A stretch of DNA of 64,000 nucleotides, taken from NCBI RefSeq assembly GCF_014201715.1, contig NZ_JACHFD010000012.1:62001-126000 (forward strand). Direction: 5' to 3'. This document shows positions 44,601 through 63,593 of the stretch, piece by piece. The notes beneath the pieces were generated by a model. That model worked only from the letters and a program-made list of their open reading frames with translations, did not search any database and was not told the origin of the DNA. The stretch is from Haloferula luteola (GTDB lineage: Bacteria; Verrucomicrobiota; Verrucomicrobiia; Verrucomicrobiales; Akkermansiaceae). The first letter of the stretch is position 1, and each line of letters begins with the position of its first letter. Position numbers and translations under genes: made by a program.

Positions 44601-44819
44601 GCGAAAGGACTATGGGCCGCAGGATGCGACAGCGCAAGAACGCGGCCATGGCCCTGAGGAAAGGGGGAGAACCTCGGCAAGCGGGTGCGCGATGGACCTC
44701 CGTTGAGGGCTAAAACCTCGACAATTTCAGGTAGGTTGATAGTTTTTCGAGTCCGCAACTTGTTGAGTGGTAATCCTTAGTTGCCGAATCAAGAAGCTGC
44801 GGGTTCAACCATTGATCCC

Positions 44820-45557
44820 ATGAAAAGACATCATTCAATGATTCATCGCATGGTCTCCCCCTGTCTCCTGCTGATGGCTCCGCTGGCAAGTGGAGCAGTC
44901 AGTTGGACGGTGACCCTCGACACGATTACAACGAGTTACAGTTCTCAGCCGGATCCGTTTTTGGGCGGGACGGACTCTGAGACGCGCCTCACGGCATCTG
45001 GAACACCGGCAAGTCCGATTGATTTCAGTGCCTTGGGGGACACGGAATTCAGCATCACCCTTCAAGCGCCTGCGGGGTCGGTGATCCAGGTCTCCTATCC
45101 TTCGGGTTGGGATTCGGCTTATTTCCGGGCGGCGATGACTTCTTCAGGTTCTTCAGGAACCGGAGCATTCATCGACAACAGTCCGGACATCATTACGATG
45201 GGATATTCCCTGATTTCTGGCACCGATTGGAGCTCCTCCTCGACCAAGAAGCTGCAGCTTCCGGGTGTGGGTGGAAATCTCTACAGTACTTATGAGAATA
45301 TGGCGGTATCGGTGGGGTCGGTGTATCAATTCGAAAGCATCACCTTCACCACCACGGTGCCGGCTAGTTACAATGAGGTTTTGAATCCGTCGGGCCCCAG
45401 CTTCTATTTGATCACCCGGGTGAGTTCGGATTCGCCCTTGGCGGATGCAGGTCCCTTGGTCTCTTTGGTGTCGGTGCCTGAGCCGGTGACCTCAGGACTG
45501 CTTGCGGCGGGAGGGCTTGTCGGGCTGCGCCGGAGGCGAAGGGTGCGACCATGCTGA
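44820..45557 (+). CDS. PEP-CTERM sorted secreted protein
   Basis: A 245-aa protein with a signal peptide (HRMVSPCLLLMAPLASGAV) and a C-terminal PEP-CTERM signal: VPEPVTSGLL, then a hydrophobic stretch and RRRRR at the end. The middle is a Ser/Thr/Gly-rich beta-strand domain (residues about 27-215) with no identified fold. Such proteins are processed by exosortase (EpsH/XrtA) and exported with exopolysaccharide. No exosortase is in the window. A hairpin follows 15 nt after the stop. Confidence 0.85.
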   Translation: MKRHHSMIHRMVSPCLLLMAPLASGAVSWTVTLDTITTSYSSQPDPFLGGTDSETRLTASGTPASPIDFSALGDTEFSITLQAPAGSVIQVSYPSGWDSAYFRAAMTSSGSSGTGAFIDNSPDIITMGYSLISGTDWSSSSTKKLQLPGVGGNLYSTYENMAVSVGSVYQFESITFTTTVPASYNEVLNPSGPSFYLITRVSSDSPLADAGPLVSLVSVPEPVTSGLLAAGGLVGLRRRRRVRPC

Positions 45558-47693: not shown

Positions 47694-48842
47694 ATGTCCG
47701 AACCCCATCTGCCTGCTTGGAAGCGATCTGACGCCTTTCCTCCGGCCTCTGAAGGCTGGGGCTGGGTGGATCGCAAGGGGAGACGACAGAGTTGTTCGGA
47801 TCTGGATGCTCTCGCTGCGGCTATCATTGATGACGCGGGTGCCCGGGTGGATCTGGTTTGGACGCCTGAGCATTCCCACCTCGTTTTGCCCGAGGAGATT
47901 CCCGCGTTGCTTCCGGCGTTGAAGGAAGCCCGGGTTCGGTGGGCGGAGTGGGAGATTCAGGAAGGTGCCCGCCAGATGAAGTGGTTTGGGATTCTGGCCG
48001 TGGTGTTGGCGGTGGCGACGGCCATGAAGCCGACGACCGTGGGGTTGGCGGTGATTCTCTTTCTGATGCTCGGTTTTTTCCCGTGGTATCAGGGGCGGAA
48101 GCGCTTGCGCCGGGCTAAGGCCTGGAAAGCGGAAGAAGGGGTCGGGGATCTCGAGGGGCTTCGTTTCGAAACCTGGCTGATGGCCCAGAAGGCACCCGTC
48201 ACCCACGCCATGATGGCAATCATCGGGGTGATTGCGCTCGTGCAGTGGTTGGGTCCGCAGACGCTGGAGGAACAGGTGAAGTCGGCAGGGTTGGTGAAGG
48301 TGAATGGCAGGGCTCTCGATACCTGGAGGTTGGCGACGGCCCCATTTCTGCATGGGCATCCTCTGCATCTGTTTTTCAATGCCTCGGCCTTGCTCTATCT
48401 AGGGAGGCGAATGGAGGTGTTGGCGCGCTGGCCGCACCTTTTGCTGGTGTTTGTGCTTTCCGCTTGGGTGGGCGGGGAATGCTCTGCCCGCTGGGTGGCG
48501 GCATCTTCGCTGGGAGCTTCGGGGGGACTGATGGGGATGTTGGGATTCCTCATGGTGTATGAGGCGATGCATCGTCGCTTGGTTCCGGAGAGTTCACGCC
48601 GTCGGCTGCTAGCGGGCTTATTGCTGACGATAGGAATTGGCGTGGTGGGATTTCGCTTTATCGACAATGGAGCCCACGGCGGCGGTTTGGTGTTGGGGAT
48701 GGCGTATGCCTTCGCGGTCTTTCCTTCTTCGGTTTCCGCGACCCGTCCGAAGACCACCTTGCCGGATCGCCTGGCTGGTGCTGCGGCTGCTGGGGTCTTC
48801 TTGTGGGCGGCCATTTTCACGCTGATCAAAATCAGCGCCTAA
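47694..48842 (+). CDS. Rhomboid-family intramembrane serine protease
   Basis: A 382-aa protein. About 90 N-terminal residues are soluble, then two membrane segments (about 97-130), then the rhomboid core (about 160-360). The catalytic serine lies in SLGASGGLMG and the histidine in DNGAHGGGLVLG. The HGHPLHLFFNASAL segment provides the conserved Asn. The core looks intact, so an active protease is expected. Substrates are unknown. It converges with the last gene (48848) of the minus-strand operon. Confidence 0.88.
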   Translation: MSEPHLPAWKRSDAFPPASEGWGWVDRKGRRQSCSDLDALAAAIIDDAGARVDLVWTPEHSHLVLPEEIPALLPALKEARVRWAEWEIQEGARQMKWFGILAVVLAVATAMKPTTVGLAVILFLMLGFFPWYQGRKRLRRAKAWKAEEGVGDLEGLRFETWLMAQKAPVTHAMMAIIGVIALVQWLGPQTLEEQVKSAGLVKVNGRALDTWRLATAPFLHGHPLHLFFNASALLYLGRRMEVLARWPHLLLVFVLSAWVGGECSARWVAASSLGASGGLMGMLGFLMVYEAMHRRLVPESSRRRLLAGLLLTIGIGVVGFRFIDNGAHGGGLVLGMAYAFAVFPSSVSATRPKTTLPDRLAGAAAAGVFLWAAIFTLIKISA

Positions 48843-48847
48843 AGCCT

Positions 48848-49057
48848 TCATGCATCGTGCTGGAAGGCGAACAGCACTAGCAATGCGATCCCGATCACCC
48901 ACAACAGGATGACGTTGAAAATGAAATAGGGGTAGGCCATGAGGGCGAGGCCGATCACCTTGGGCTTCCAGCGGTCGAGGGCCTTGCCGTATCTCCAGAC
49001 GCCCCAACCGATGGTTCCGAAGATAAAGCCGGCAAGCAATTGGAAGGGATGGAACAT
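48848..49057 (-). CDS. Small two-segment membrane protein, last gene of the coupled operon
   Basis: A 69-aa protein with two hydrophobic stretches (about 7-22 and 38-64, FNVILLWVIGIALLVLFAF). It starts 8 nt after the stop of the upstream gene. The family is common in Verrucomicrobia-like genomes by memory of the pattern, but I do not know a function. Its place at the end of the operon suggests it shares the job of the other six products. Confidence 0.7.
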   Translation of the reverse strand: MFHPFQLLAGFIFGTIGWGVWRYGKALDRWKPKVIGLALMAYPYFIFNVILLWVIGIALLVLFAFQHDA

Positions 49058-49065
49058 GGCAGGAA

Positions 49066-50430
49066 TCAGCGATGGTACCAGGCGGGGCTCTGGTACAGAT
49101 TGAACTGGATCGACGAGAATACGCTGAAATCAAATTGGGCAGTGCCAAAAGTCTGTGACGACCCACGCAATGTGCCGTTTTCGAGGGCTTCCAGTTTGAA
49201 GGTCACACAGCCTCCGTCGGCGAAGTAGGCCCGAATGTCGCCATTGCGGCGGATGGGACGCCAAAATTTTTCGGGATCCCGCGCGTCCTCTTCGGTGCGC
49301 AGGGGAAAGGCACGAAGCCGGTCGACAGGGAGTTGGAAATCTCTGAGATCCGCATCGATGGATGCGAGTCCATCTTGGATGCGGGTAATGCCGCCGTCGA
49401 TGGTGTCGCCATTGCGAAGTTGAATTTCTCCTTGGCGGGGTTTTTCGGGGAGATTTGGGGCGGGTTCTTGTCGGCCGAATCCCTGGCGGGCTTGGAAGCC
49501 TCCTTCAAGGACGCCATCCCAACTTTCGATCTGAATCCGGGTAATGCGGATCCCGGCGGATTGTTGGCTGACGAATTCGAGCATGGGCCCGGGGTCCTGC
49601 TTGAGGGGATCGTTGTCTCGCCAGTCGGTGACGATCTGGTCGCCGACGATCAGCCGGAACAATCCGTTCTCGATGTCTTGAAGCATTTCGATGTGCACCG
49701 ATCCGGTGGAGCCAAGATCTTCGACGGCGCCGGCGCTGCCGATCGGTTGAATTTGACCTCGATTGTTGCCCCTCACCAAGCGTTTGCGGAAGGAGACGTA
49801 CTGATTCTGGCAGGCGAGTTCGTAGTAGCTTTCGAGTTCTCCCTGGGCGCTCGCCTGCCCGTGGGTGCGGATGCTGAGATCAGTGCGATCGTTCCAATCG
49901 ACGTCGATGCCGATGCGGATTTTGGGGTGCACGCCGATCTCCCGCCGGATTTCTCCCGCCCCTTGGCAAACGAGGGAGCCTTGGTCGATTTGCCACGTAT
50001 CGTCCTCTTGCGTCCATCCGGTGAGATCGGAGGGACCACGGTAGAGGATGGCGGCGCGGTCGCGGACATCAAGGCTGGCGACCATGTCGCGGCGAAGGGT
50101 GAGGATGCCTGCATAGTGCGTCTTCAGAACCACGGATTCGGCAGTGAGGTCGAGAAGTACCCCGCGCAGCGAATCGCCATTGCTAAGGGTGACGCGAGCG
50201 GTGTGTTTCCCTTCGGGTAGTTCGGATTCACGGGCCGAGGGAATGCGAATTTCCTGAAGATCCTTGAGACGGAGTGGGGCGGGGTGAGTGAGCAGGGGGG
50301 ATGACCAAGCCAGTTGATCTCCGGTAACAGCATCAAGGTGTCCATGGAGGATGTCACCATTGGCAAACTCGGCGGTCATCGAACTGGCGGCGGAGCCTGC
50401 CAGCAGCGCGGTGAGGAGGCAGGCAATCAT
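49066..50430 (-). CDS. Secreted paralog 3 of the tandem NGD/jelly-roll family
   Basis: A 454-aa exported protein (signal peptide MIACLLTALLAGSAASSMTA). The architecture is shared with the two upstream genes. Two short barrel-like repeats at the N terminus have NGD..HG and NGDSLRG patterns followed by a strand ending in L.L..L. A middle domain of about 150 residues (WTQEDDTWQIDQGSLVCQG onward, ending GIRITRIQIESWDG) resembles a LamG/3-keto-disaccharide hydrolase jelly-roll. A third barrel-like repeat (IQLRNGDTIDGGI) lies near residues 340-385. No catalytic site was recognised. The start overlaps the upstream stop by 4 nt. Function unknown. Confidence 0.75.
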   Translation of the reverse strand: MIACLLTALLAGSAASSMTAEFANGDILHGHLDAVTGDQLAWSSPLLTHPAPLRLKDLQEIRIPSARESELPEGKHTARVTLSNGDSLRGVLLDLTAESVVLKTHYAGILTLRRDMVASLDVRDRAAILYRGPSDLTGWTQEDDTWQIDQGSLVCQGAGEIRREIGVHPKIRIGIDVDWNDRTDLSIRTHGQASAQGELESYYELACQNQYVSFRKRLVRGNNRGQIQPIGSAGAVEDLGSTGSVHIEMLQDIENGLFRLIVGDQIVTDWRDNDPLKQDPGPMLEFVSQQSAGIRITRIQIESWDGVLEGGFQARQGFGRQEPAPNLPEKPRQGEIQLRNGDTIDGGITRIQDGLASIDADLRDFQLPVDRLRAFPLRTEEDARDPEKFWRPIRRNGDIRAYFADGGCVTFKLEALENGTLRGSSQTFGTAQFDFSVFSSIQFNLYQSPAWYHR

Positions 50431-51740
50431 GGTTCTTCAGGAGGAAGCTGGCGGCGAGCGAGGGCACGCAGCGCCTCGCGGCGGAACGTGAGTTCTCCGA
50501 GCAAGGGATGGAGAATACGGGCTTGCTGATTTTCGAAATGGCAGGACTCGGCGCTGATGAGTCCAGTATCGGGAAGGCCGATCAACAGGGGAGAGCGCCC
50601 GGTGGCCTCGTCGGAATGGCAGAAAAACAGGGTGGAAACACGGTCCATGGGGACGTGAAGCGGACTCGGGGAGAAGTCGGTTTGAATTTCGACCGAGTTC
50701 GATGGAGAGTCCGCTTGAGATCCGAGAATCTTTCCACCGAAGCGTTGCCCATCGATGTCGATGAGAGCATCGACGGTGGGATCGCCCCGTTCTTCATTGG
50801 GATGGCGGTCGCGGATGGGATTCCAAGCACGGAGGAGAATCGGGCCCACGGACATCGCTTCGGGTTCGTTGATCAAGGAATTGAACACGATCTTCGAACC
50901 TTCGGGGATGCCTTGGCGATCGACGGCGTCGAGGAGCACCTCCGCATCGTCGAGCTGAATTTTCAGATGGTGGCGATCGCGGTCGACTCGGATCTCCAGT
51001 TGAAAAGTGGACTGCGGGAAATCGGCAGGATTGAGGGGCACCTCGCCGAGGGTATCGAAAGTGTTTTGGCGCGAGCTCTGGCGATCGAGTCGCAGCCGGT
51101 GATTGCGGATTTGCAGTCGATAGCGGTCCTCTTTCTGGGGGCCAGGGGATTCGCTGGCGGAGCAGAAGTAAACCTCAAGATTGGTGGTGCGGGCCCACTT
51201 GAGCTGGAACTGAAGAGAGAAGGAGGAGGAAATCGAGCCCGGGTCAAAGGCGCTGGGACCCCGGCCGAGAGAAATCAGCGCACCGTTCTCGACCCTCCAT
51301 GCACTGGGGCCGCTCCATTCCTCGCCCGCTTGAGGACCGTCATAGAGAATTCGCCGTGGTTGCAAGCCGACTTGCAAGGAGCGGATAAGGCGACGCGGGA
51401 CATCGAGCGGAGACGAATAGGCGGTGTTGACGGTGATGGTCTCGTCGCCAATCGCCTTGAGTTCGCAAGGGAAGACATCGCCATTGATCAAGACCACTCG
51501 GGCGCTTTGATCGGCCCATTCCTCGGGGGGGGGAGGGAAGTTGACCTCTCGCACACCCTCCAGTTTCAGCCCCAGATCCTCTTGGGCCAATGGGGTCCGC
51601 AATGAGAGCTGCTCACGATCCAAGGTGACGACTTCGCCGGTGAGCCGCGAGCCATCGGTCAGCAGGATTTGGTCTGCCGAGGCGGTGATGGCGACGAGGC
51701 CCATGAGCGCCGAAGTGAGGCTGGAAAACTTTGGAGTCAT
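50427..51740 (-). CDS. Secreted paralog 2 of the tandem NGD/jelly-roll family
   Basis: A 437-aa exported protein (signal peptide about residues 1-22, MTPKFSSLTSALMGLVAITA). It shares the layout of its neighbours: barrel repeats LTDGSRLTGEVV and LINGDVFPCELK, a jelly-roll-like middle (WRVENGALISLGRGPSA, FSLQFQLKWARTTNLEVYF) and a third repeat (ALIDIDGQRFGGKIL) near residue 330. It has 4-nt overlaps with both neighbours. Sequence identity with the other two is low enough to suggest old duplication. Function unknown. Confidence 0.75.
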   Translation of the reverse strand: MTPKFSSLTSALMGLVAITASADQILLTDGSRLTGEVVTLDREQLSLRTPLAQEDLGLKLEGVREVNFPPPPEEWADQSARVVLINGDVFPCELKAIGDETITVNTAYSSPLDVPRRLIRSLQVGLQPRRILYDGPQAGEEWSGPSAWRVENGALISLGRGPSAFDPGSISSSFSLQFQLKWARTTNLEVYFCSASESPGPQKEDRYRLQIRNHRLRLDRQSSRQNTFDTLGEVPLNPADFPQSTFQLEIRVDRDRHHLKIQLDDAEVLLDAVDRQGIPEGSKIVFNSLINEPEAMSVGPILLRAWNPIRDRHPNEERGDPTVDALIDIDGQRFGGKILGSQADSPSNSVEIQTDFSPSPLHVPMDRVSTLFFCHSDEATGRSPLLIGLPDTGLISAESCHFENQQARILHPLLGELTFRREALRALARRQLPPEEP

Positions 51741-53170
51741 GGCTCGTCCCAGGGGTTGAGGAATTGCCCTGCGGGTTGGTATTCCAACAGGCTGGCGGCG
51801 CGGAGGTCGAGGCGGACTTGATTCAAGAGAGGGGAATCCAGCACGGCATGGTCGGGACCCGCTTCGCGGATCTTTCCGGTGATGCGCCCAACGGGTTGGA
51901 AAAAGACAGCGAGACTGCCATTTCCGATCGATTCCGGAGGCTCGACCTGATGGCCGGCGAGGTGGACTTCCGCGACTTCATGAAGGGGGATCGTGAGGTC
52001 GGCGTAGGGACCGGAGAGGGTGATGCGACGATCCTGAATGGAAACGATTTCTCCGGAAAACCGGTCGGTTCCATTGGTGAGGAGAATAAGGTCACGATCG
52101 GCGTGATCGAAGCTACGGGCGGCGTCCGGCATGCCGTTCCATTCGGCGACCAGAAGGTTGGAGATTCGCAGCGAGTCGTGGTTACCAGGGACACCGAAGC
52201 CAATGCCGCCGCCGAGGGGTTGAAAGTTCTCTTCTTCCTCCAGATTCCAATGGATCATGTAGGATCCGTCGACATAGAGGGTCACCGTGCCTTCATCGAG
52301 GTCAGTTCGGATTTCCAGTTCGGCTTCGTCGCGTTTCCGAAACTGGACGGTCGAGGCGTCGGTTCGGATCATTCGGGAAAACGGGCGGCCGTCTTTTTCA
52401 TAACCGCAGCGTTGCAGAGAAACATAGTTTCCACGGACGTTGAGAATGAGGGAATTGCCGAAAGATGCGGTGGTGAAGTCCGGACGCGGCGCGGCCTGCT
52501 GAGCCTCTTCGTCACCCTCAAGGGGAGGCGGAGCCATGAAGTCACTGTAGAATCCGATCATTACGGGGGGCATGGCCCGCCAGTCGAGATGCATGCGAAA
52601 GACCGATTGCCTCGGCATCGATAGGGCGCGTCGCAGAATCTCGGGTCCCCCGTGGTAGTACCAATCTCCGCCAGAGTGCTGCCAGGCTGGGGTCTTGGAT
52701 TCTTGAGCCTCCGGGGTGGGATCGGTCGAAGCGGGGAGGGTGATTTCCCAGGCTTCGGCATCGAAGGGACCGGCATAGATCAAGCGTCCCCCGAAAGGGT
52801 TGGGAGCGAGGGAGGCGATGGCCGATATCGGAATCGTCAGTTGCCCCGCAACGGCCGATTCCATGACCAGTTGGTCACGATCCATGGAAACGATGGTGCC
52901 GGGGAGGCAATCTCCATTGGTGAGGAAAACATGGGAGAGTTCACCCGTGACCCCTTGGGGTTGGGCACCGCGCAGGGCGACGTGCTGGATCCGATCGAGA
53001 TTGAAGCTAAGACCGTTGTCTGCGTCGTCTCGCAACCACAGGAGCTTGCCCTCGGGCGTAATGCCACCAAAATGACCTTCCAGGCTTCCGTCGCTGAGTC
53101 GCAGCAAATCCGGAGGCTCGGCGGAGGCCATGCCCAGGATCAAGGGAAGCAGCAGGAGGAGGCGAATCAT
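51737..53170 (-). CDS. Secreted paralog 1 of the tandem NGD/jelly-roll family
   Basis: A 477-aa exported protein beginning with signal peptide MIRLLLLLPLILGMASA at ATG 53170 (an extended frame to 53260 overlaps the upstream coding end). Repeats LSDGSLEGHFGG and LTNGDCLPGTIV, then GRLIYAGPFDAEAWEI and a middle with WYYHGGPEILRR and VFRMHLDWRAM typical of the jelly-roll part, then a third repeat LTNGTDRFSGEIVS. It is the first of three tandem copies. The start overlaps the stop of the toroid protein gene by 4 nt. Function unknown. Confidence 0.75.
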   Translation of the reverse strand: MIRLLLLLPLILGMASAEPPDLLRLSDGSLEGHFGGITPEGKLLWLRDDADNGLSFNLDRIQHVALRGAQPQGVTGELSHVFLTNGDCLPGTIVSMDRDQLVMESAVAGQLTIPISAIASLAPNPFGGRLIYAGPFDAEAWEITLPASTDPTPEAQESKTPAWQHSGGDWYYHGGPEILRRALSMPRQSVFRMHLDWRAMPPVMIGFYSDFMAPPPLEGDEEAQQAAPRPDFTTASFGNSLILNVRGNYVSLQRCGYEKDGRPFSRMIRTDASTVQFRKRDEAELEIRTDLDEGTVTLYVDGSYMIHWNLEEEENFQPLGGGIGFGVPGNHDSLRISNLLVAEWNGMPDAARSFDHADRDLILLTNGTDRFSGEIVSIQDRRITLSGPYADLTIPLHEVAEVHLAGHQVEPPESIGNGSLAVFFQPVGRITGKIREAGPDHAVLDSPLLNQVRLDLRAASLLEYQPAGQFLNPWDEP

Positions 53171-54159
53171 TTTTCGTAGATAGGGAGGTAGCGGTAATTG
53201 AGGGCGATGGAGAGAAGGGCACCTGCGGTGCTGAAGGCCTCTCCCTTGTCTCCAGGCCATGATCCATCGGGCTGTTGAAGCACCCCAAGATAGCGAAGGT
53301 TTTTCTCATTCCATTCGGCCCACAATTGGTCGTTGGATTGGAAAAGCGCCTGCGACATATAGTATTCGTAGTAGTAGGGGTAATGCTGGTCGCGGTAGTC
53401 GAGATTCTCCGCAAGGTAGTCGACACTCTTGGCAAAACCTTTCCCCTCCCGTTGTTTAGCAAGGCCGAGGCAGGTGACGCCAATGGCTGTCAGTGTGGGC
53501 TTACCTCCGCCGGAGGAAGTGTAGCCGTAGGAGCCGTCTTCCGCGCGACACCGGGCCATGAACGCGAGACCTTTTTGGATGGCTTCCTGTGGGACGCCGA
53601 TGCCGGCATTGCGGGCCCCCAGCAAGGCGACAAGTTGGCAACCGGAGACCGTGGTGTCGGCATCTCGGCTTTCCGGTGAATAACGCCAAGCGCTCGCGGG
53701 GTTGCGTTCTTGGGCATTGAGAATGAGATCGACCGCTTTTTTAAGGGCGGGAGCGAGCTTGGGCTCATCGACCATGCCGTAAGCCTCGGCAAGGGCGAGG
53801 GTACAGAAGCCATGGTTGTACATCGAGTTGCCGATGTATCCATTGCGGTCTTTTTGATTCTCTAGGATGTATCGAACGCAGCGATGAATGGCTTCGGCGT
53901 AGGGGCCGTGATTGGCGTCGTCTCCGTGGGCGAGAAAGGCTTTGAGGCAGAGGCCGACCACGGCAGGTTCGCCGCCCATGGTATCGTTCCAGGAGCCCCC
54001 TTCGTTTTGAGTGCGGACGAGGTAGGCAAGACCGCGTTCATACATCGATTCCACTTGGGCGGGGATCGGATCAGTAGGGCGGTTTGGAAGTACTTGGGCA
54101 GACAGGCCGGAGTTTCCTGCAACGATGATCCAGGTGAGAGTGACGATGCGAGGGATCAT
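53167..54159 (-). CDS. Secreted toroid (terpene cyclase/prenyltransferase-like) protein
   Basis: A 330-aa exported protein (signal peptide about residues 1-22). It has four or more QW-like repeats (TQNEGGSWND, QKDRNGYIGN, RAEDGSYGYT, QQPDGSWPGD) that build an (alpha/alpha) barrel as in squalene-hopene cyclase and alpha-macroglobulin/complement TED domains. The catalytic DxDD motif of cyclases is absent, so an enzymatic cyclase role is unlikely. Binding or scaffolding of another secreted protein is more plausible. It overlaps neighbours by 4 nt at both ends. Confidence 0.8.
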   Translation of the reverse strand: MIPRIVTLTWIIVAGNSGLSAQVLPNRPTDPIPAQVESMYERGLAYLVRTQNEGGSWNDTMGGEPAVVGLCLKAFLAHGDDANHGPYAEAIHRCVRYILENQKDRNGYIGNSMYNHGFCTLALAEAYGMVDEPKLAPALKKAVDLILNAQERNPASAWRYSPESRDADTTVSGCQLVALLGARNAGIGVPQEAIQKGLAFMARCRAEDGSYGYTSSGGGKPTLTAIGVTCLGLAKQREGKGFAKSVDYLAENLDYRDQHYPYYYEYYMSQALFQSNDQLWAEWNEKNLRYLGVLQQPDGSWPGDKGEAFSTAGALLSIALNYRYLPIYEK

Positions 54160-54782
54160 GGTTCTAGGCGCCGCAGCCCTCGGTTGTAGGCTTTCAGAGC
54201 CTCGCTGAATTCATCGGGCAGGGATTTTCCGGCCACACCGGCGCCCTTGGGCACACGTCGGGTTTCGGAAGCGCCGCTGGCGGTTCCCTGGACGTTCTGA
54301 TTGGCGAGGTCGGAGTCACCGGTCATGCCTTCGCCGTCTCCTTGCTGGGAGGGTTGCTTGCCCTGTTGCGGTTTTCCGGTTTCGCCATCGATGCCGAGCA
54401 TGCGTTCCAACATTTTCATCATGGCACCCGATTCGGGTGAGCCTTCGCCAGACTGTTGCTGACGTTTTTTGGCGGCTTGATAGATCTTCTCGATGACATC
54501 GGTTTGGGCCGCGAGGGTTTCGCCACCGGTTTCATGTTCCCAAAGTCGCTCGCTGGCTTCGTCCATGGCGTCTTCCACTTCGCGGAACAGGAGGATCACT
54601 TCCTCCGCAGTTTGCTCGATGGTCAATTGCTGCACATCTGCGGCCAGTTCGTCCTGTTGGTCCGAGAGCCGTTGCGAACTCTCTTGGTGGCGCAGCGTGG
54701 CGTCCTCGTGAGAGGGGGAGGGGACCGGTTCGGCGAAGGCCCAGGTGGTGGTGAGGGCCAGAATCCAATAGATGCATCTCAT
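54156..54782 (-). CDS. Small secreted helical protein of the coupled operon
   Basis: A 208-aa protein with a signal peptide (MRCIYWILALTTTWAFA). Residues about 30-115 are predicted helical and acidic/Gln-rich (QQDELAADVQQLTIEQTAEE), and residues about 115-165 are Gly/Gln/Ser-rich and look disordered. It ends in a conserved-looking helix (EFSEALKAYNRGLRRLEP). The 4-nt overlap with the large coiled-coil gene upstream implies co-production. I recognise no family. Confidence 0.7.
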   Translation of the reverse strand: MRCIYWILALTTTWAFAEPVPSPSHEDATLRHQESSQRLSDQQDELAADVQQLTIEQTAEEVILLFREVEDAMDEASERLWEHETGGETLAAQTDVIEKIYQAAKKRQQQSGEGSPESGAMMKMLERMLGIDGETGKPQQGKQPSQQGDGEGMTGDSDLANQNVQGTASGASETRRVPKGAGVAGKSLPDEFSEALKAYNRGLRRLEP

Positions 54783-57388
54783 GGGTTTTCCTCCTTCGCT
54801 CGCCGCAGTGTTTCCAGAGCTCGGGTCCTTGCCCGCAGGTCTTGCTCTTCCTGCACCATGCGCATGACCCGCAGCATGAACTCGAAATCTTCGTCTTCGT
54901 CAGATCCGCCGCCACCACCACCGCCTCCTCCACCCCCGGCCTCGTTGGAGGCGCCTTCCAACATTTTGGCCCATTCGCGCAGTTGATCGGACCATTGGTG
55001 AGACGACGAAGCGGCGAGGTAACCTTGGTTGCGCTCGATTTGTTGGCGGATGTTCTCCAGTTCGATCTGAATCCCTGAGTCCTGCATGGCTTCGAAGACT
55101 TTGCCGTAGTCAGGATTGGCGGTTCGGGTGAAAAAATGGCCGAGGTCTTCCTGAATCCAGCGGATCTCTGAGCCGGTAGCCGACTGTAGGCGGACGAGAT
55201 CATCGCGTTCTCCAAGTTCAGCGGGGTCGAGTTCGTCGGGTCGCAGGCCGAAGCGTTCGAAGCCGGCGAGGGAGGTGCGGGTGATGCCCTCTTGGTCGCC
55301 AGCGGCTTTCTTCAGTCGGCTCACGAAGGTGCTGGCCTCGAAGCGTTGATTGGCTTCGTTGGCCTCTTCGATGGTTTTGCGAATTTTCTCAAGGGCCTCC
55401 TTCTGGCGTTCGACGGCGTCGCTCATGTCGCGTTCGGACTTTTCATCAGAGTTCTTGGCGTCACCTGCTTCGCCGAGTTTGCCGCTGACACCGGGGAGGT
55501 CTTGGTTGCCGAGTTCTCGCAGCGATTCCATCATCTCACTCATCCGACGGAGAGTTTCCGGATCGATGGTGTCATTGCGTGCGCTGTCTTTCAGAAGCTC
55601 TTCGACTCGATCTCCGAGTTCTTTGAGGGCCTCGGCTTGGCGATCTTCCAATTGCTGCTGTGATTGGAGACGCAGGAGGTTTTCAGGGGTCCGGAGTTCA
55701 GTCGCGTCGAGCCGTTCGATGCGCTGATTTTCCTCGTAGAGACTGCGTTCCTTGCGGGCGAGGTCTTCCAGTTCACCCACGGTGCGGTCGAGGCGATTTT
55801 TGAGCATCTGAGCATGCTCGGCAGGTGTCAAAATATAGAGCGTCAGCGGCTGGGAATAGGTGCGTGTGCGACCAGGAAGATAGTCCGTGGACCAGGCCCG
55901 GAGGGTGAGCTTTTGCGGGGCGATGCCGAGGGTGTCTGGGGAAAAGGCTACGGGAAGTCCTGCTCGTGTGAGATCGGGTGACCCTTGTTGCAGGGTGAGT
56001 TCGCCCGAGGCGGATTCGGCGTCTCCGGGACGGGTGGGTTCTCCTTGCCACTCCAGTCCGATGGATTGGAGGCCGAAATCATCGGCTGCGGAAACGGTGA
56101 AATCGATCGTTTCGGAAGGCAGCATCGCACGGTTTCCGGAGAGGCCTTCGATGTAGACGATAGGGGCTTCGTCAGGAACCGCTTCGATTCGCAGTTCGAA
56201 CCCAGGTGCCCCATCGAGACCGAGGGTATCCGTCCATTGCAATGGGATCTTCAAAGAGGTGGCGCCGACCTCGATCGACGGTGCGGTGGCCTTTGCCCCA
56301 TCGAGTGTCATCGGTTGAGAGGGCGTGAGTTCAGGAGCTTCTCCAGAGCCGGCCTGAAGGGCGGAAATCGGGCCGGCGGAGGCTCGCACCAAGGCCCGGT
56401 CGGCCTCAACAGAAAGTTGCACGTTGGCCCCCTCGACGGCCCGGACGGTGCCGGTGGTGAGAACCTGGGATTCTTGTTCGCGCCGGAGATAGGTGGGAAA
56501 TTCAATCACCGCCTGGCTGCGAATCAGCGAGGGGCGAAGGGATGGGGTGACGAAGATCTTATGGATGGCATCGCCGACCTCGAGGCGCAGAAATCCGGGC
56601 TGAAGTTGGCCGGGGAATTCGAAGTGGTAACGCTGGCCGTGGAGGGACGTTTCCAGCGGATCTTGGGAGGCAAAGCGAGCACGAGCCGTCGGGGGCTGCC
56701 AGCGGCTGCCCGAGGCCAAATGGAGTTCAAGGGAGAAGGCTTCGCCTACGGGAACCGCAAGTTCACTCGGCAGGGCTTCAAGCTGGGTGAATGTGTATCG
56801 AGGGGTTTCAGAGAGGGGGAACAGCCATCGCTTGAGGGAATTCAATCCTGCTTCCGGAACCGCGATCAGGGCGATGCCGGCGATTAGAAACAACAGGATG
56901 ACCGCCAGCGACCAGCGCTTGTGACGGGAGAGCGGGAGCAGGTCGTCGAGTTTGCGGCGCTGGGTTTCTGCCGCTACTGCCTCCATGGCGGCGGCGCGCA
57001 GGCGCGGGGAAAGGGAGTCGTCGGACTCAATCTGATTGGCTAAGTCAATGACACCCAGAAGACGATCGCCCAGTCCGGAATGCTTTTTGGCAATGAGGCG
57101 GGCGAGTTGGTCATGATCGCGATGGCGCCAGACCCAGCGGTGCAGCCAAATGGGTGCGAAAATCGCGGACAGCGAGGTGCCGGCGAGAAGAATGATCAAG
57201 CGACCCATAGGAGGGGTGGCCGAAAAGCGATCGATGGCGAAGACGATCAGAAACGACAGCAAAAGCCCGAAGATTCCTGCAAACACGGCCTCGGCGATCT
57301 TCGTGCGCCAGAGCTGCCGACGGTATTCCTCCAGCTGCACACGGAGGGACTCCGGCAGTGGGGAGCGTGTCGGTTTCGGCTCAAGCAT
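54779..57388 (-). CDS. Large membrane-anchored coiled-coil protein, DUF4175-like, first gene of the coupled operon
   Basis: An 869-aa protein. Membrane segments lie at about 33-52, 62-82 and 160-178. A periplasmic region of about 300 residues with beta-rich strands follows (about 190-540). A long helical coiled-coil region spans about 540-720 (RLDRTVGELEDLARKER, then LYEENQRIERLDATELR). The C terminus has a polyglycine run and an acidic end (SDEDEDFEFML). The layout resembles DUF4175-type proteins of Planctomycetes/Verrucomicrobia, whose role is not known to me. It heads the operon; a 170-bp divergent promoter region separates it from the small membrane gene at 57559. Confidence 0.75.
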   Translation of the reverse strand: MLEPKPTRSPLPESLRVQLEEYRRQLWRTKIAEAVFAGIFGLLLSFLIVFAIDRFSATPPMGRLIILLAGTSLSAIFAPIWLHRWVWRHRDHDQLARLIAKKHSGLGDRLLGVIDLANQIESDDSLSPRLRAAAMEAVAAETQRRKLDDLLPLSRHKRWSLAVILLFLIAGIALIAVPEAGLNSLKRWLFPLSETPRYTFTQLEALPSELAVPVGEAFSLELHLASGSRWQPPTARARFASQDPLETSLHGQRYHFEFPGQLQPGFLRLEVGDAIHKIFVTPSLRPSLIRSQAVIEFPTYLRREQESQVLTTGTVRAVEGANVQLSVEADRALVRASAGPISALQAGSGEAPELTPSQPMTLDGAKATAPSIEVGATSLKIPLQWTDTLGLDGAPGFELRIEAVPDEAPIVYIEGLSGNRAMLPSETIDFTVSAADDFGLQSIGLEWQGEPTRPGDAESASGELTLQQGSPDLTRAGLPVAFSPDTLGIAPQKLTLRAWSTDYLPGRTRTYSQPLTLYILTPAEHAQMLKNRLDRTVGELEDLARKERSLYEENQRIERLDATELRTPENLLRLQSQQQLEDRQAEALKELGDRVEELLKDSARNDTIDPETLRRMSEMMESLRELGNQDLPGVSGKLGEAGDAKNSDEKSERDMSDAVERQKEALEKIRKTIEEANEANQRFEASTFVSRLKKAAGDQEGITRTSLAGFERFGLRPDELDPAELGERDDLVRLQSATGSEIRWIQEDLGHFFTRTANPDYGKVFEAMQDSGIQIELENIRQQIERNQGYLAASSSHQWSDQLREWAKMLEGASNEAGGGGGGGGGGGSDEDEDFEFMLRVMRMVQEEQDLRARTRALETLRRAKEENP

Positions 57389-57558: not shown

Positions 57559-57894
57559 ATGAACCCCTACGAAGCGTCTCGAGAAAGCATTTCGCAGACC
57601 GTGCTGGGCAAAGAGCTGCCGCCGAAGAGCCAACGGATGCTGCATTCCGTCAGGCTAGGATTGTTGATCGGGCAAGTTTTGCTCTCCTTTGTGGGGGGCT
57701 ATGGGGTTGCCAAGGGCCGGGGGGATGCCCTCCTGGCGGTGGCGATGGTGGGGGTATTCCTGATGCAAGTGCTGTTGGTTTGGATTCCTGGAAGAAAGGC
57801 TGTGGAGGGTTGGCAGATGTTAAGGTGGGCGACGGCGGTCTTTTTCATCACCTTTCTGGGTTGGGGAGCCGTGTCACCGCTCGGCATGGGGTGA
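57559..57894 (+). CDS. Small membrane protein upstream of the molybdenum hydroxylase genes
   Basis: A 111-aa protein with three hydrophobic stretches (about 33-52, 56-75, 85-106). It has no recognisable family motif. It diverges from the coupled operon and precedes iorA by 74 nt on the same strand, so either transcription unit may include it. The role is unknown. Confidence 0.65.
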
Positions 57895-57968
57895 ATTTTG
57901 TTCTCCTGAGGATTTCCGTTGAGCTTTCTCTGATCGATAGCAGGCTGCGGGGACCCTGGGAAAAGCAG

Positions 57969-58427
57969 ATGAAAACCTATGAGCTGAAGATCAACGGCGG
58001 GGTGCATAAGGCCGAAGTGGAGGAGGACACACCCATGCTGTGGGTGTTGCGGGACGCACTCGGGCTGATGGGCACGAAGTTCGGCTGTGGAGTCGGCCAA
58101 TGTGGGGCTTGCACCATTCACCTGAATGGCCAAGCGGTGCGTTCCTGTACGCTGCCGGTGGAATCCGTGGGGAATGCAGAGGTGACGACCATTGAAGGTT
58201 TGGCGGAGGAGGGTGAGCTGACGCCTCTGCAGGCGGCTTGGTGTGAGCACGATGTGGCTCAATGTGGATACTGTCAGGCCGGGCAGATCATGAGTGCGGC
58301 CGCGCTTCTCAAGGCCCATCCTCATCCTGAGGATTCCCAAATTGACGAGGCCATGGCGGGGAATTTCTGCCGTTGCGCCACCTATGCTCGCATTCGTGAA
58401 GCCATTCATACTGCTGCCGCTCGATGA
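57969..58427 (+). CDS. iorA: Isoquinoline 1-oxidoreductase-like alpha subunit, 2Fe-2S
   Basis: A 152-aa iron-sulfur subunit of a molybdenum hydroxylase. The plant-type cluster motif is [10 protein letters not shown] (first three cysteines) with the fourth in RSC, and the second cluster uses QCGYCQAG and NFCRCATY. Start ATG 57969 is preceded by a purine-rich stretch. It passes electrons from the molybdenum subunit to an acceptor. The start of iorB overlaps the stop by 4 nt (ATGA). Confidence 0.95.
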
Positions 58428-60571
58428 ACACGCTGGATCGTAGAAGCTTTTTCAAAGTGTCGGCTTTGGCCGGAGGTGGATTTTTTTTGGTGAGTGGGCT
58501 GCGGGCGGAAACCGAGCCGGAGCTTCGTGACTTCTCGCCTAGCGCCTTCATTCGCCTCACTCCGGATGGCCGGGTCACCATCATGGCTCACAAGCCCGAA
58601 ATCGGGCAGGGGGTAAAGACCTCGCTGCCCATGATCGTGGCCGAGGAGATGGAGGTGCCGTGGGAAATGGTGACGGTGGAGCAGGCCCCCATCAATCCGG
58701 CTTACGGCGGGCAAACGGCGGGAGGGAGCACCTCGGTTCCGAGTAGCTACGAGCGCCTTCGGAAACTAGGGGCGGTCGCCAAAACGATGTTGATTGCGGC
58801 TGCCGCGGAGGCGTGGAAAGTTTCTCCTACGGAGTGCCACGCGGAGGCGGGAGAGGTGGTGCACGGTGCGAGTGGTCGCAAACGATCGTATGGTGAGTTG
58901 GCACTTTCAGCCGCCCGCCAACCTGTCCCTGCTGAGGATTCAGTGGTGCTGAAAGATCCGAAGGATTTCAAGATCCTGGGTCGCCGCATCGGCGGTGTCG
59001 ACAATCGGGCGATCGTGACGGGGCAACCCCTGTTCGGCCTCGATCAAGTGCAGCCCGGAATGCTCCACGCATGTTTCCTGCGCTGCCCCGTATCGGGCGG
59101 GAAGGTGAAATCCGCCAATCTGGCAGAGGTGGCGGCCCTGCCGGGAGTTCACAAAGTATTCGAAGTCGAAGGCTCGGGGGACCGCTATGGACTTTATCCG
59201 GGAATCGCAGTGGTGGCCGATTCGACCTGGAGGGCGATCAAGGCCCTGCGGGCCTTGAAAGTGGAGTGGGACGATGGTGGCCATGGCGAAGAAAGCTCCG
59301 CTGCGCATGCCGCTAGGGCAACTGAGCTGATGAAAGGAGCTGGTGCCGCGCGACTCTCCGAGCGAGGTCAACCGGAGTTTTCCGAGGGGTCTCTGGATGT
59401 GGTCTATTCGTATCCGCATTTGGCCCACAACACGTTGGAGCCCCAGAATTGCACCGCGGTGTTTCGAAATGGGGAGTTCGAGTTCTGGGCGCCCACTCAA
59501 AATGGGGGAAGCGCCATCGATGCAGTGGCCCGGCAGTTCGGCGTGCCCAAGGAAAATGTGAAGATCCATCTGACTCGCATCGGGGGTGGTTTTGGACGGC
59601 GCTTGATGGTTGATTCGATGGTCGAATGCGCAGCGATCGCTCGGCAAATCGAAGGGATTCCCGTGAAGTTGACGTGGACTCGCGAGCAAGATCTGGCCCA
59701 GGATTACTACCGGCCGGGAGCTTGGCATCGGTTCCGTGGAGCCGTGGATGTCGAGGGCAAGCTATCGTCGTGGGCCGATCATTTTGTGACCTTCGGGCTC
59801 CATAGTGACCAGCGGCCGGGCAATGGTGCCGGGATCGGAGGCGATGAATTTCCGGCCCATTTCGTGCCGAATTTTCAACTCGAACAAACCGTGATGCCCA
59901 GCAACCTGCCTCTTGGTTGGTGGCGGGCCCCAGGTTCCTGCGGACTCGCGTTTGCCATCCAAGGATTCTTGGACGAGATGGCCCATGCGGCCGGAAAAGA
60001 TCCCTTGGATTTCAAGCTCGAGCTTTTGGGCGATCAGGAGGAAGTCCACGGGTATCACGTGCTGAGGATGAAAGGTGCGTTGCGCGCAGCAGCGGAAAAG
60101 GCAGGCTGGGGGAGATCACTCCCGAAGGGGAGCGGTCAGGGCATTGCCTTCCACTACAGTCATCGGGGATACGTGGCCGTGGTTGCCGAGGTGACGGTGA
60201 GCCCGGATGGTAAACTCTCGGTGGATCGACTGATTGCGGGGGTCGATGTCGGGCCCGTACTCAATCCGAGTGGAGCGGAGAATCAGGTGCATGGATCGAT
60301 GCTGGATGGCCTCAGTGCGGCGTGGTTTCAGCAGGTGAAGATCGAGGCCGGCTCGGTCGCGAATGCCTCCTTTGCGGCCTACCCAGTATTGCGCATGCCG
60401 GATGCGGCGCGGGTGGAATCCGTTTTCGTGAACTCCCCGTTTTCGCCAACCGGACTCGGCGAGCCTGCATTGCCTCCTACTGCCCCGGCGGTGTGCAATG
60501 CGATCTTTGCCGCGACGGGGAAACGCGTTCGTGATCTTCCCTTGCAGGGGCAGGATCTTCGCTGGTCTTGA
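58424..60571 (+). CDS. iorB: Isoquinoline 1-oxidoreductase-like beta subunit, molybdopterin
   Basis: A 715-aa molybdopterin-binding subunit. The N terminus has a Tat-like signal ([17 protein letters not shown]) for export. Conserved pieces include [42 protein letters not shown] and the catalytic-glutamate region [18 protein letters not shown]. The enzyme probably hydroxylates an aldehyde or N-heterocycle in the periplasm; the substrate is not inferable. Translation is coupled with iorA (4-nt overlap). Confidence 0.94.
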
Positions 60572-60598
60572 GGAGCCCCTCGGTGTTTGCGCTTCGTC

Positions 60599-61534
60599 AT
60601 GAACCACGATTGGACTCTCCTCAGCGCCTTTATCCGAAGGCATGCTCACGAGCCTCTGGCGATGGTGACGTTGGTGTCTCGGGAGGGAGCCAGCTATCGT
60701 CAGCCGGGTGCTCGGATGTTGGTTTCAGCAAGGGGCGAAAGAGTGGGTTCGTTGAGTGGTGGATGCTTGGAGGAAGGTCTTGCCGAAGTTGCCCTACGGG
60801 TTCTGTTAACGGGAGAAGTGCGGAAGGAACGCATCGACACCCGGCCGCACTTTGGCTGTCCAGGGGTACTCGAATTCCTGCTAGAGCGCGTTGAGCCCCG
60901 GGGGCTTTTCGAGTGCGTGTTGCGGAAGTTGCAGCATCGGGAAACATTTGAGGTCACCACGGGTCCCCGAGGAACGGTGGTGGGGCGCGCGGCGGGTTTC
61001 GTTGAAAAAGTCGGGCCTGCGCCGCGTTTGTTGGTGGTCGGTTGGACCTCGGATCAGGAACCCCTTTTTCAACTGGCTGCTGTGTTAGGGTGGGAATGTC
61101 ATCGATTGATCCGCGATGCCCGGATGGAAGTGCCATTGGTCGCAGAAGAGCACGTGAGGGTCGGAGTTGCGGACGAGTTGATCCGTCATTTTCCACCGGA
61201 TTCGATGACGGCGGTGCTGGTGATGAGTCATCATTTGGCAACGGATCTCGGCTATTTGCGGGCGGCATTTGGGGCAGGCTATGGTTATGTGGGTTTGCTG
61301 GGTTCGAGGCGTCGACGTGAAAGTCTTCTGGCTGAGCTGGGAGAATCGGGGGCTTTGGACGACGAACGGGCAATCGAGCGATTTCATGCTCCGGCCGGTC
61401 TTGATCTTGGTGCGGGGCACCCGGCGACGATCGCACTTGCGATCCTCGCCGAAGTGCAGGCGGTTTTTGCCGGCCACGATGGCGGGTTTTTGAGAGATCG
61501 CATGGGCTCAATTCATCGGGTGGTGGGAGCATGA
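60599..61534 (+). CDS. xdhC: XdhC/CoxI-type molybdenum cofactor insertion protein
   Basis: A 311-aa accessory protein. ATG 60599 is chosen; a TTG at 60587 lies upstream. The XdhC N-terminal domain shows REGASYRQPGARMLVSA and GSLSGGCLEEGL. The C-terminal Rossmann domain contains RLLVVGWTSDQE and YVGLLGSRRRR. XdhC proteins bind molybdopterin cofactor and help insert it into xanthine-dehydrogenase-type enzymes; this one would serve iorAB. It overlaps the following mocA-like start by 4 nt. Confidence 0.92.
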   Translation: MNHDWTLLSAFIRRHAHEPLAMVTLVSREGASYRQPGARMLVSARGERVGSLSGGCLEEGLAEVALRVLLTGEVRKERIDTRPHFGCPGVLEFLLERVEPRGLFECVLRKLQHRETFEVTTGPRGTVVGRAAGFVEKVGPAPRLLVVGWTSDQEPLFQLAAVLGWECHRLIRDARMEVPLVAEEHVRVGVADELIRHFPPDSMTAVLVMSHHLATDLGYLRAAFGAGYGYVGLLGSRRRRESLLAELGESGALDDERAIERFHAPAGLDLGAGHPATIALAILAEVQAVFAGHDGGFLRDRMGSIHRVVGA

Positions 61535-62160
61535 GAATCGGTGCGATGGTTCTGGCTGCAGGTGCTTCCCGACGGTTTGGCCAGCCAAAGCCGTTGCTCA
61601 TGTTGGATGGTGAAAACCTGGCTCAGAGGACATGCCGAGTGGCTCTTGAGGCGGATGGTTCGCCGGTCGTCTTGATGCTGGGAGCTCGTGCCGAGGAGGT
61701 GCTCCAGGCTGGCACGCCGAGCGGCGTTCGAGTGCATGTTCACTCCGGTTGGGCCGAAGGGATGGGAGGGACCATCGCCGCGGGCATGGACGGCCTCACG
61801 ACCGATCCCCTCGACGCAGTGATGCTCCTTTTGGCGGATCAGCCAGCGATCGATGCATCCTGTTTGCGTCGGTTGGTGTTGGCTTACGAAAGGGGGGCAT
61901 CGATTGTCATCAGCGACTCAGGCAGATCCTGGGGGCCGCCGGCATTGTTTGCTCGTCGACATTTTCGAGCCCTGCGGGCATTGAAGGGAGATCAAGGTGC
62001 CAAGGCGATCGTGCAAGAGAATCCCACCGATCGTGCCGTGCTTGCCATGCCTGAAGCGGCCTGGGACGTGGATGAACCTGACCGGTGGCAGGCGTTCCTC
62101 GTTTCACGGGGCATGGGGTGGGGGAATCGTCCCTGCGAGTCGATGGGAGTCGAACCTTAG
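61531..62160 (+). CDS. mocA: MobA/MocA-like molybdenum cofactor nucleotidyltransferase
   Basis: A 209-aa nucleotidyltransferase. The start LAAGASRRFGQPK is the nucleotide-binding loop, and LLLADQPAI is the metal/nucleotide site of MobA/MocA proteins. MocA attaches CMP (MobA attaches GMP) to molybdopterin. The placement with xdhC and iorAB suggests formation of the cytosine dinucleotide form, typical of xanthine-oxidase-family enzymes. It overlaps the end of xdhC by 4 nt (ATGA). Confidence 0.9.
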   Translation: MRIGAMVLAAGASRRFGQPKPLLMLDGENLAQRTCRVALEADGSPVVLMLGARAEEVLQAGTPSGVRVHVHSGWAEGMGGTIAAGMDGLTTDPLDAVMLLLADQPAIDASCLRRLVLAYERGASIVISDSGRSWGPPALFARRHFRALRALKGDQGAKAIVQENPTDRAVLAMPEAAWDVDEPDRWQAFLVSRGMGWGNRPCESMGVEP

Positions 62161-62325
62161 CCGGCCATCAAGTATGGCGCCTGGCCTGCCATTTTCATAA
62201 AAGCACCATGGCAATCCATGCGCAGAGGAGGCTGCCCGCGATCCGCCATGAATGTTCTTCGTTGGGGAGCTAAGCGGAGTCAGATGAATTTCTGGGACGT
62301 TCGGGAATCGGAGTGCGGAGCAATA

Positions 62326-62350
62326 GAGTATTTCAAATAAACCCGTAGCC
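62326..62350. repeat. Left terminal inverted repeat of the IS630 element
   Basis: Starts GAGTATTTC and ends CCCGTAGCC. It pairs with the right repeat at 19 of 25 positions, with the inner CCGTAGCC block perfect in both. Confidence 0.85.
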
Positions 62351-63264
62351 ACAATAGGCAAACCCATGGGCGGCGTCCTTGGCGGTAACACGGGACAGGG
62401 CTTTCTCGATCTCCAGCAGCAACTGGTCGTTGTCTAGGGCCTCAGCTCCACGGAGCAGGTTCTTCACTTTGCTCCACATCAACTCGATCGGATTGAGGTC
62501 GGGAGAATACGGCGGCAGGAAACGCACCTCCACATCGCGGGCGGCGAGCATTTCAAGCGCGCGTGAATCCTTTTGTGCGCTGAGGTTGTCCATCACCAGG
62601 ATGTCGCCGGGTTTGAGGGACGGCAGCAGGACCTCCTTCACGTAGGCTCGAAACACCTCGGCGTTGGTAGCGCCTGTCATGCAGGCGGTGCTGCCGTCGA
62701 TACACACCGCGCCGATCATCGTGGTGGTCCGCCAGCGGCCGCAAGGCGCGCTGGCGTGGAGCCGCCTGCCGCGCGCGCAGCGGCCGCGCAAACGGGTCAT
62801 GTTCGTTTTTGCCGCCGATTCGTCGAGGAAGACGAGCCGCCCGGGTTCGAGACCGCCCTGCGCTCTTTTCCACCTGCGGCGGTCTCGAGCGACATCCTCG
62901 CGGTCCTGTTCGGCAGCGCGGAGCGTCTTTTTTTATATGTCAGTCCCATGCCGGAGAGCGTGTAGTGGATTGCCAGCACGCTGCATTCCAGACCCGCCGC
63001 GGCGCGGATCTCCTCGAGTGTCAGGTCCGGATTCTCGACGAGTAGCGCCTTCATCATGCGGCGGTGCGAAGCCTCGATCTTCGGCTTGCGCCCGCTGCGG
63101 TGGTGCTGCGGCGCGATGTCTCCGGTATGGCGCCTTTGCTGGAGGAGCTTCTTGACCATTCCAAGCGAAACTTCGAAACGCTGGGCCACTTGGTCGCGCG
63201 TGACATCCCCGCGGTCGTAGGCCTTGAGGATTCTTTCGCGCAGGTCGATCGAGAGCGTTGCCAA
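62333..63264 (-). CDS. tnpA: IS630 transposase in two frames, -1 frameshift
   Basis: Two overlapping frames. Frame A (63264-62797, 155 aa) carries the N-terminal HTH (ATLSIDLRERILKAYDRGDV) and a DNA-binding part with RSGRKPKI. Frame B supplies the catalytic domain: VFLDES contains the first acidic residue, DILVMDNLSAQK the second and FLPPYSPDLNPIELMWSKVK the conserved terminal motif. Switching frames at the A7G run (62934-62927) gives a 310-aa fused protein, the usual size for IS630 transposases. Without the shift, frame A reads off into an unconserved SSSSTNRRQKRT end. The stop lies within the left terminal repeat. Confidence 0.88.
62927..62934 (-). promoter_or_regulatory. Candidate -1 frameshift site (A7G) in the transposase
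   Basis: On the minus strand, seven A residues followed by G, read as TAT AAA AAA AGA in frame A. A one-base slip back gives AAG ACG CTC, entering the frame that encodes LRAAEQDRE and then the catalytic DES. Poly-A slippery runs of this kind are typical of split IS630 transposases. Confidence 0.65.
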
Positions 63265-63294
63265 ACCTAGAGTGTATCAGAACGTATCTCACAC

Positions 63295-63319
63295 GGCTAC
63301 GGTAATAGTTAAAATGCTC
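63295..63319. repeat. Right terminal inverted repeat of the IS630 element
   Basis: Read from the outer end on the minus strand it begins GAGCATTTT and ends CCGTAGCC. It is 31 nt upstream of the transposase start, a typical spacing. Confidence 0.85.
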
Positions 63320-63593
63320 TAGGCGAATTTTTGCGAGGGGGTGGTCAAAAACTCTGCTACCTCGGAAGCACCCACATGGAGTCGTCCAATGTCGCTCTTG
63401 CCCGAGGTTACGACGGGTTCATTTTTCCGGGCCTCGTCACCATCGAAAACGTCCGCCTTGAGCCGATCGGATGGGGCGAGTTCAGGAGCATCGTGAGCCC
63501 TTATCGCGCCGTGTCGTTTGCAAAGACGCCGGAATGGAGCTTCCTTCTCCGATGGGGTTTCCGCCGGTTGGTGATCGCTTGCGAAATTCCGAA

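Follow-up and report, generated by a model that had tools for sequence, protein, structure and literature searches.

Seven open reading frames (ORFs) on the minus strand occupy positions 48848 to 57388 of the window, a 64,000-nucleotide (nt) stretch of Haloferula luteola DNA lying on contig C12 of the genome that we call G000. We named the genes A to G in descending coordinates, from 57388 downwards, and asked to which kind of cellular system they belong. Named relatives of protein C placed the organism in the Verrucomicrobiales, among bacteria of the Akkermansiaceae/Verrucomicrobiaceae kind (Haloferula, Luteolibacter, Roseibacillus, Rubritalea). All seven ORFs described in an earlier reading made without database searches (the sequence-only reading) are present in the sequence, and so are the five 4-nt overlaps between consecutive genes and the 8-nt gap before G. 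Gene A (54779..57388) encodes a protein of 869 amino acids (aa) with three transmembrane (TM) segments, about three immunoglobulin (Ig)-like domains and long helices. It is followed by B (54156..54782, 208 aa), by C (53167..54159, 330 aa), an alpha/alpha toroid of the squalene-cyclase/prenyltransferase kind, by the three paralogs D (51737..53170, 477 aa), E (50427..51740, 437 aa) and F (49066..50430, 454 aa), and by G (48848..49057), which encodes a hydrophobic protein of 69 aa. The program-made ORF list starts D at 53260, 30 codons upstream of position 53170; the latter start gives the overlap and a signal peptide. Signal peptides of B, C and D were assigned by eye. Together with the TM segments of A they are the signs of the envelope location that had been proposed for the products.

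The sequence-only reading expected the gene order to be conserved in related genomes, and it is. A scan of named genomes with C as query yielded 555 confirmed loci, of which the best 80 were kept for gene-order counts. In 57 of these 80 loci all six genes A to F occur in order on one strand, and the same order is kept around A matches in the same genus. Eight of the 23 other loci have C-D-E-F with A/B not adjoining (for one of them, L122, just 1 kb upstream of C was available); in all eight genomes concerned A was located elsewhere in the genome, one of these A genes having a TGA in frame. Loci L098 and L125, which lay outside this eight-genome search, have no A/B although several kb of upstream sequence are present. 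D is missing in three loci (L136, L138 and L100, the last of which shows no A either), and the remaining ten have no A or no 3′ genes. Contig ends cut many of these loci, which were not checked locus by locus. In L136 and L138 only E and F follow C.

A start codon in 4-nt overlap with the preceding gene is possible at 37 of 45 A/B, 24 of 50 B/C, 50 of 77 C/D and 46 of 70 E/F junctions; the D/E junction is the loosest (5 of 70). These counts took the start nearest to the upstream stop, a choice that favours tight junctions. A tblastn comparison of G with the fetched loci, the window's own copies left out, gave no relative (lowest E-value 0.52), and no small hydrophobic ORF was listed for the 900 nt following F in nine relatives. 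G was therefore dropped as a member of the system. Of the proposed seven-gene unit, the part conserved as an operon is the six genes A to F.

The three hydrophobic segments of protein A (aa 34-52, 64-82 and 159-177) lie near the N-terminus. They are a correction to the earlier description of A as an N-terminally membrane-anchored coiled-coil protein. In the AlphaFold2 model (mean predicted local distance difference test score, pLDDT, 85.8; predicted template modelling score, pTM, 0.54) the Ig-like part spans aa 200-520 and the helices aa 522-866; because of the pTM value the arrangement of the domains is uncertain. Hydropathy suggests that residues 83-158 (56915..57142, minus strand) form a cytosolic loop. 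Counting as invariant a position that is the same in at least 26 of 27 aligned rows, we found 17 invariant positions among the 76 of the loop, 32 among 321 in the Ig part and 23 among 291 in the helical part, so that the loop is about twice as rich in them as the Ig part and almost three times as rich as the helical part. The stretch 178-199 equals the loop in this respect (6 of 22), and 48 of the 794 windows of loop length in A have a higher mean conservation. Among Pfam families at E ≤ 1, A had no match to DUF4175; a remoter kinship is possible. A split alpha-2-macroglobulin (A2M), composed of the Ig-like part of A and the toroid C, was also considered, having been suggested by complement/A2M entries in the fold comparison of A. 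C-x-E-Q is the thioester motif of the A2M/complement toroids; it occurs in none of 27 C proteins, and the candidate was rejected. The Z-scores of those entries were about 8, a size that is common.

In longer A proteins the final ~170 aa are matched by the profile of B. The highest score, 114 bits, was obtained with residues 885-1049 of the A protein of locus L185, which is not linked to genes of the AAA+ ATPase MoxR; the MoxR-linked A proteins described below are about 1030-1470 aa long in open frame, and their C-terminal matches to the B profile score 30-54 bits. Because of these matches to the C-terminus of long A proteins, B is a detached C-terminal domain of A, the two being joined in a single protein elsewhere. 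HHalign comparison of the genus' B and A alignments gave no match, as expected for two different parts.

The toroid assignment of C was supported by a match to Pfam SQHop_cyclase_C at an E-value of 9.4e-11. An L-P-I-Y motif near the C-terminus of C is invariant in an alignment of 27 rows.

D, E and F are indeed tandem paralogs: HHalign assigned a probability of 100 to all three pairs, with E-values of 1.1e-40 (D-E), 2.2e-40 (D-F) and 3.7e-46 (E-F). No Pfam family exceeded its cut-off for any of the three; 3keto-disac_hyd reached 17.4 bits with E (cut-off 26.8), and D and F were not listed for it. The AlphaFold2 model of F (mean pLDDT 90.3) predicts a lectin-like jelly roll flanked by four small beta-barrels, two on each side as judged from the strand pattern. 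Residues 126-307 of F superimpose best on 1oq1_B, with a Z-score of 17.9 and a root-mean-square deviation of 2.4 over 172 aligned residues, and the fold search gave this central domain Z-scores of about 16 to CBM66 and of 15.0 to 9fbe. By fold it resembles CBM66, galectins and L-type lectins. The closest known folds are those of concanavalin-like lectins, CBM66 and 3-keto-glycoside enzymes, to which F adds the flanking small barrels. For F, the modelled lectin-like, binding-type fold supports the suggestion that the paralogs are binding parts. HHalign recognised internal repeats F1, F2 and F3 in F with probabilities of 91-96; the fourth, F4, did not exceed 32. An assignment of the small barrels as Sm/SH3-like was given up: the profile matches of this kind were weak and confined to D and E, and the fold lists, taken up by entries for the lectin-like domain, gave hardly any test of the barrels.

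Most copies from other families match F best among the three paralog profiles, and the copy number of F-type genes differs between families. Six giant F-type proteins were found in other loci of the order. All three that were scanned carry a C-terminal Redoxin domain and one carries a PPIC rotamase domain; one giant protein (L032:11683-15456, 1257 aa) has PPIC rotamase and Redoxin domains at its end. Such domains fit a folding or quality-control setting, which is not proof of one.

The sequence-only reading could name no known system with this gene set. In other families, the genes of A, C and D/E/F type turned out to be the distal part of MoxR-DUF58-BatA-vWA (Bat-type) operons. Twenty regions around A or C were taken from a sample of 194 genomes of the phylum, and ten of them (L186, L187, L190, L192-L198) contain the complete series MoxR-DUF58-BatA-vWA-A-C. 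These ten loci span four other families of the phylum, six coming from one family, and in eight of the ten an F- or D-type gene follows C. Pfam confirmed AAA_3 (MoxR), DUF58 and BatA in L187. The fifth protein of that locus had only sub-threshold vWA and amidotransferase matches, and for this reason its name is given by likeness to the other loci. Three of the ten other regions (L188, L189, L191) are cut by contig ends, four from genus g3 (L183-L185, L202) have A and C without MoxR genes, L201 holds a sister MoxR operon that encodes a toroid resembling C, and the last two, L199 and L200, hold second copies of A. The series MoxR-DUF58-BatA-vWA-A was also found in three loci (L211-L213) of the window's order. 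In genome G027, also of this order, vWA and A share a contig but are oppositely oriented; in six further genomes (G024, G028, G031, G032, G033, G035) they are on different contigs or 330 kb apart. The kinship of A-F to MoxR/Bat operons is well supported by these arrangements. As a separate observation, a protein resembling A is encoded in paralogous MoxR operons at several loci.

No MoxR/Bat genes adjoin A-F in the window, where the neighbours are a molybdo-enzyme cluster and a rhomboid gene. The genome contains nine DUF58 matches, none of them on contig C12. One, in locus L205 on contig C14, belongs to a four-gene run MoxR-DUF58-BatA-vWA, which is followed by an ABC-transporter ATPase; no A or C was seen near it in 20 kb. 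Walker-like (ATP binding) and MIDAS-like motifs were read by eye in the L205 proteins. In a midpoint-rooted DUF58 tree L205 stands among the A-linked operons. The MoxR, BatA and vWA trees have no unlinked paralog inside the clade formed by the linked loci and L205, and the support of this clade is 0.995 for MoxR and 0.881 for BatA. A second MoxR-DUF58-BatA-vWA operon of the same genome (L206, contig C7) is accompanied by a distant A-like protein and by a gene resembling the DUF4159 protein of L042.

The two halves occur in the same genomes. The vWA protein of contig C14 was used as query, orthologs and paralogs being separated at ≥430 and ≤210 bits in a set of 38 related genomes (the window's own included) and at 411 and 198 bits in the phylum sample. 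An A match was found in 30 of the 38 relatives. A and the vWA ortholog are both present in 29 of the 38 and both absent from seven, two genomes being discordant. In the phylum sample A (≥333 bits, next match ≤62) and the vWA ortholog occur in the identical 29 of 194 genomes, and strong C matches (≥338 bits) in the same 29. A and vWA are neighbours in 15 of these genomes and lie apart in 12; contig ends leave two undecidable. Within genus g3 of the window's family both are found in 10 of 17 sampled genomes and neither in seven of the 17. Groups g4, g5, g13 and g14 have neither (G020, one of the g4/g5 genomes, is just 69% complete).

We consider it probable that A-F make up the distal half of a Bat-type machine of Verrucomicrobiota, which would use ATP for assembly or quality control in the envelope and would here be split in two operons. 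In the one-operon form of other families the system would consist of MoxR, DUF58 (with a VWA domain), BatA, vWA, a fused A-B, C and usually at least one F-type protein; in the window's family the operon would be in two pieces, with B separate from A and the F type represented by D, E and F. The direction of this split, the physical assembly of the products, the coupling to ATP and the purpose are matters that we infer, and the same applies to the joint action of the two halves. MoxR and DUF58 would spend ATP acting on an inner-membrane platform of BatA, vWA and A, and their action may be passed on through the conserved, predicted cytosolic loop of A, perhaps a docking site for MoxR/DUF58. In the periplasm, the Ig-like and coiled-coil regions of A and B might hold clients or hand them over, so that A/B would bridge the ATPase side and the secreted C-F modules. 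The toroid C and the lectin/small-barrel proteins, D-F, could be secreted for recognition or as a scaffold. Such a machine would assemble envelope proteins or glycans, or control their quality. A bolder version, in which cytosolic MoxR/DUF58 of a two-operon, ATP-powered trans-envelope machine drives the BatA/vWA/A/B platform to load or assemble the secreted toroid and lectin/barrel modules, its operons being co-retained though unlinked, is tentative and in our view rather doubtful.

The proposal of an ATP-driven machine draws on what is reported of MoxR proteins. They are regarded as chaperone-like, acting with VWA partners (PMC3893208), and another paper describes an MRP MoxR as an ATP-dependent chaperone in vitro, which kept its client from aggregation only with ATP (PMC11432383). 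The authors of the latter speculate that this MoxR works without a VWA partner (PMC11432383).

Several observations weigh against a common machine. No F-type gene was seen behind C in loci L196 and L197, and the F-type gene of L193-L195 scores just 28-77 bits. Near two second copies of A (L199:9531-13046 and L200:8502-11861) neither C nor MoxR genes were recognised. The DUF58 tree was read without supports, and two loci of the window's genome, L208 and L210, fell below its score cut. The vWA clade has a support of 0.19 at the midpoint root, and six loci of the same genome (L203, L204, L207-L210) were left out of the MoxR, BatA and vWA trees. Of the two discordant relatives, G001 (90% complete) has vWA without A and G011 (72% complete) has A without vWA. 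The C cut is less clear than that of A because the gap below it is small, the next genomes, G203 and G133, scoring 330 and 319 bits. The co-occurrence counts ignore relatedness, no correction for phylogeny having been made. That the halves act together is read from genomic context, and a Leptospira study of 2012 states in its abstract that a specific function of Bat had not been demonstrated (PMC3557215).

With the halves unlinked in the window's family, A-F might after the split have become an independent secreted glycan-binding or surface assembly no longer working with MoxR. The resemblance of the central domain of F to CBM66, galectins and L-type lectins would suit such a role, as would the position of C-D-E-F away from A-B in eight, perhaps ten, loci and the two second A copies found without C or MoxR genes. 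We nevertheless think it unlikely, as all 29 phylum-sample genomes that have either A or the vWA ortholog have both, 12 of them in unlinked form. It is improbable that the operon merely gives shared expression to separate envelope proteins which form no complex: genomes in which the two halves, or A and C-F, lie apart still have both, and B and A are one polypeptide in other families. In favour of this view, what is shown is genomic context, and in the Leptospira bat cluster the deletion of bat genes still left transcripts from the genes downstream, for which the authors hypothesised promoters of their own (PMC3557215).

The remaining explanation, which would make C an active enzyme of terpenoid or prenyl metabolism and the operon a lipid pathway that includes accessory proteins, takes its support from the SQHop_cyclase_C match. 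DxDD is the catalytic motif of squalene-hopene cyclase. It is found in none of 27 C proteins, and C, a single unit of 330 aa that shares the toroid profile of the squalene-hopene cyclases and prenyltransferases, scores 37.2 bits with the hopene-cyclase equivalog of 640 model positions (cut-off 431.1), far under the cyclase cut-offs; as the other six proteins match no lipid-synthesis family either, a terpenoid enzyme operon was rejected as highly improbable.

Compared with the classical Bat (Bacteroides aerotolerance) operon and other MoxR-BatA/vWA operons, the linked loci share the MoxR AAA_3 protein, DUF58, the BatA N-terminal domain and a second, vWA-type membrane protein. They add A/B (TM segments, Ig-like domains and coiled coil), the C toroid and the F-type lectin/small-barrel proteins, and in the window's family the system is in two pieces. 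An MRP-type MoxR is also found in the RL3499-RL3502 operon of Rhizobium leguminosarum, which, going by its name, comprises four genes; it is not known to have a toroid or lectin-type gene. Its RL3499 protein is reported to be important for membrane integrity and cell morphology (PMC3893208). The logic of MoxR plus vWA is shared with the MoxR-vWA ternary conflict systems, of which a beta-propeller subsystem is reported from verrucomicrobia and planctomycetes among others (PMC7159879); unlike these systems, A-F are dominated by signal peptides and membrane segments. A role in anti-phage defence was discarded: among A-G there were two PADLOC matches, both of A, at E-values of 0.07-0.08.

Among the literature matches listed, none describes the gene set in its title or abstract opening, nor do the available portions of a 2013 paper on an Akkermansia salt-tolerance fosmid or of a paper on Pseudomonas antagonism. 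The MoxR/Bat core is already known; the novelty lies in the parts added to it, in a B that is separate from A, and in a split whose two halves occur jointly. The version described here adds several secreted or anchored parts to the MoxR-DUF58-Bat envelope operons. The halves, separated yet co-occurring, name candidate partner proteins, and the natural split means that each half can be removed or expressed alone. Residues 83-158 of A offer a concrete candidate site for passing ATPase action to the periplasm.

Scans for regulatory signals were uninformative, since the counts were near expectation: no sigma-70-like promoter sites were found where 1.7 were expected, and eight terminator-like sites where 9.7 were expected. 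No Rfam match reached the gathering score between positions 44000 and 62000.

Upstream of A, a molybdo-hydroxylase cluster (57559-64000) encodes a 2Fe-2S protein, a MoCo-binding protein, XdhC and a MobA-like protein. It separates A from an MBL-fold hydrolase gene that extends from 63594 to beyond the end of the window. In six loci (L050, L053-L055, L057, L064) a relative of this hydrolase gene is the immediate upstream neighbour of A; an insertion or rearrangement is likely. On the other side, a rhomboid-family gene (47694-48842) is convergent with G and ends 5 nt from it. A small protein encoded at 44781-45557 has a PEP-CTERM-like C-terminus, as read by eye, and a very long minus-strand ORF of 1871 aa occupies positions 5811-11426.

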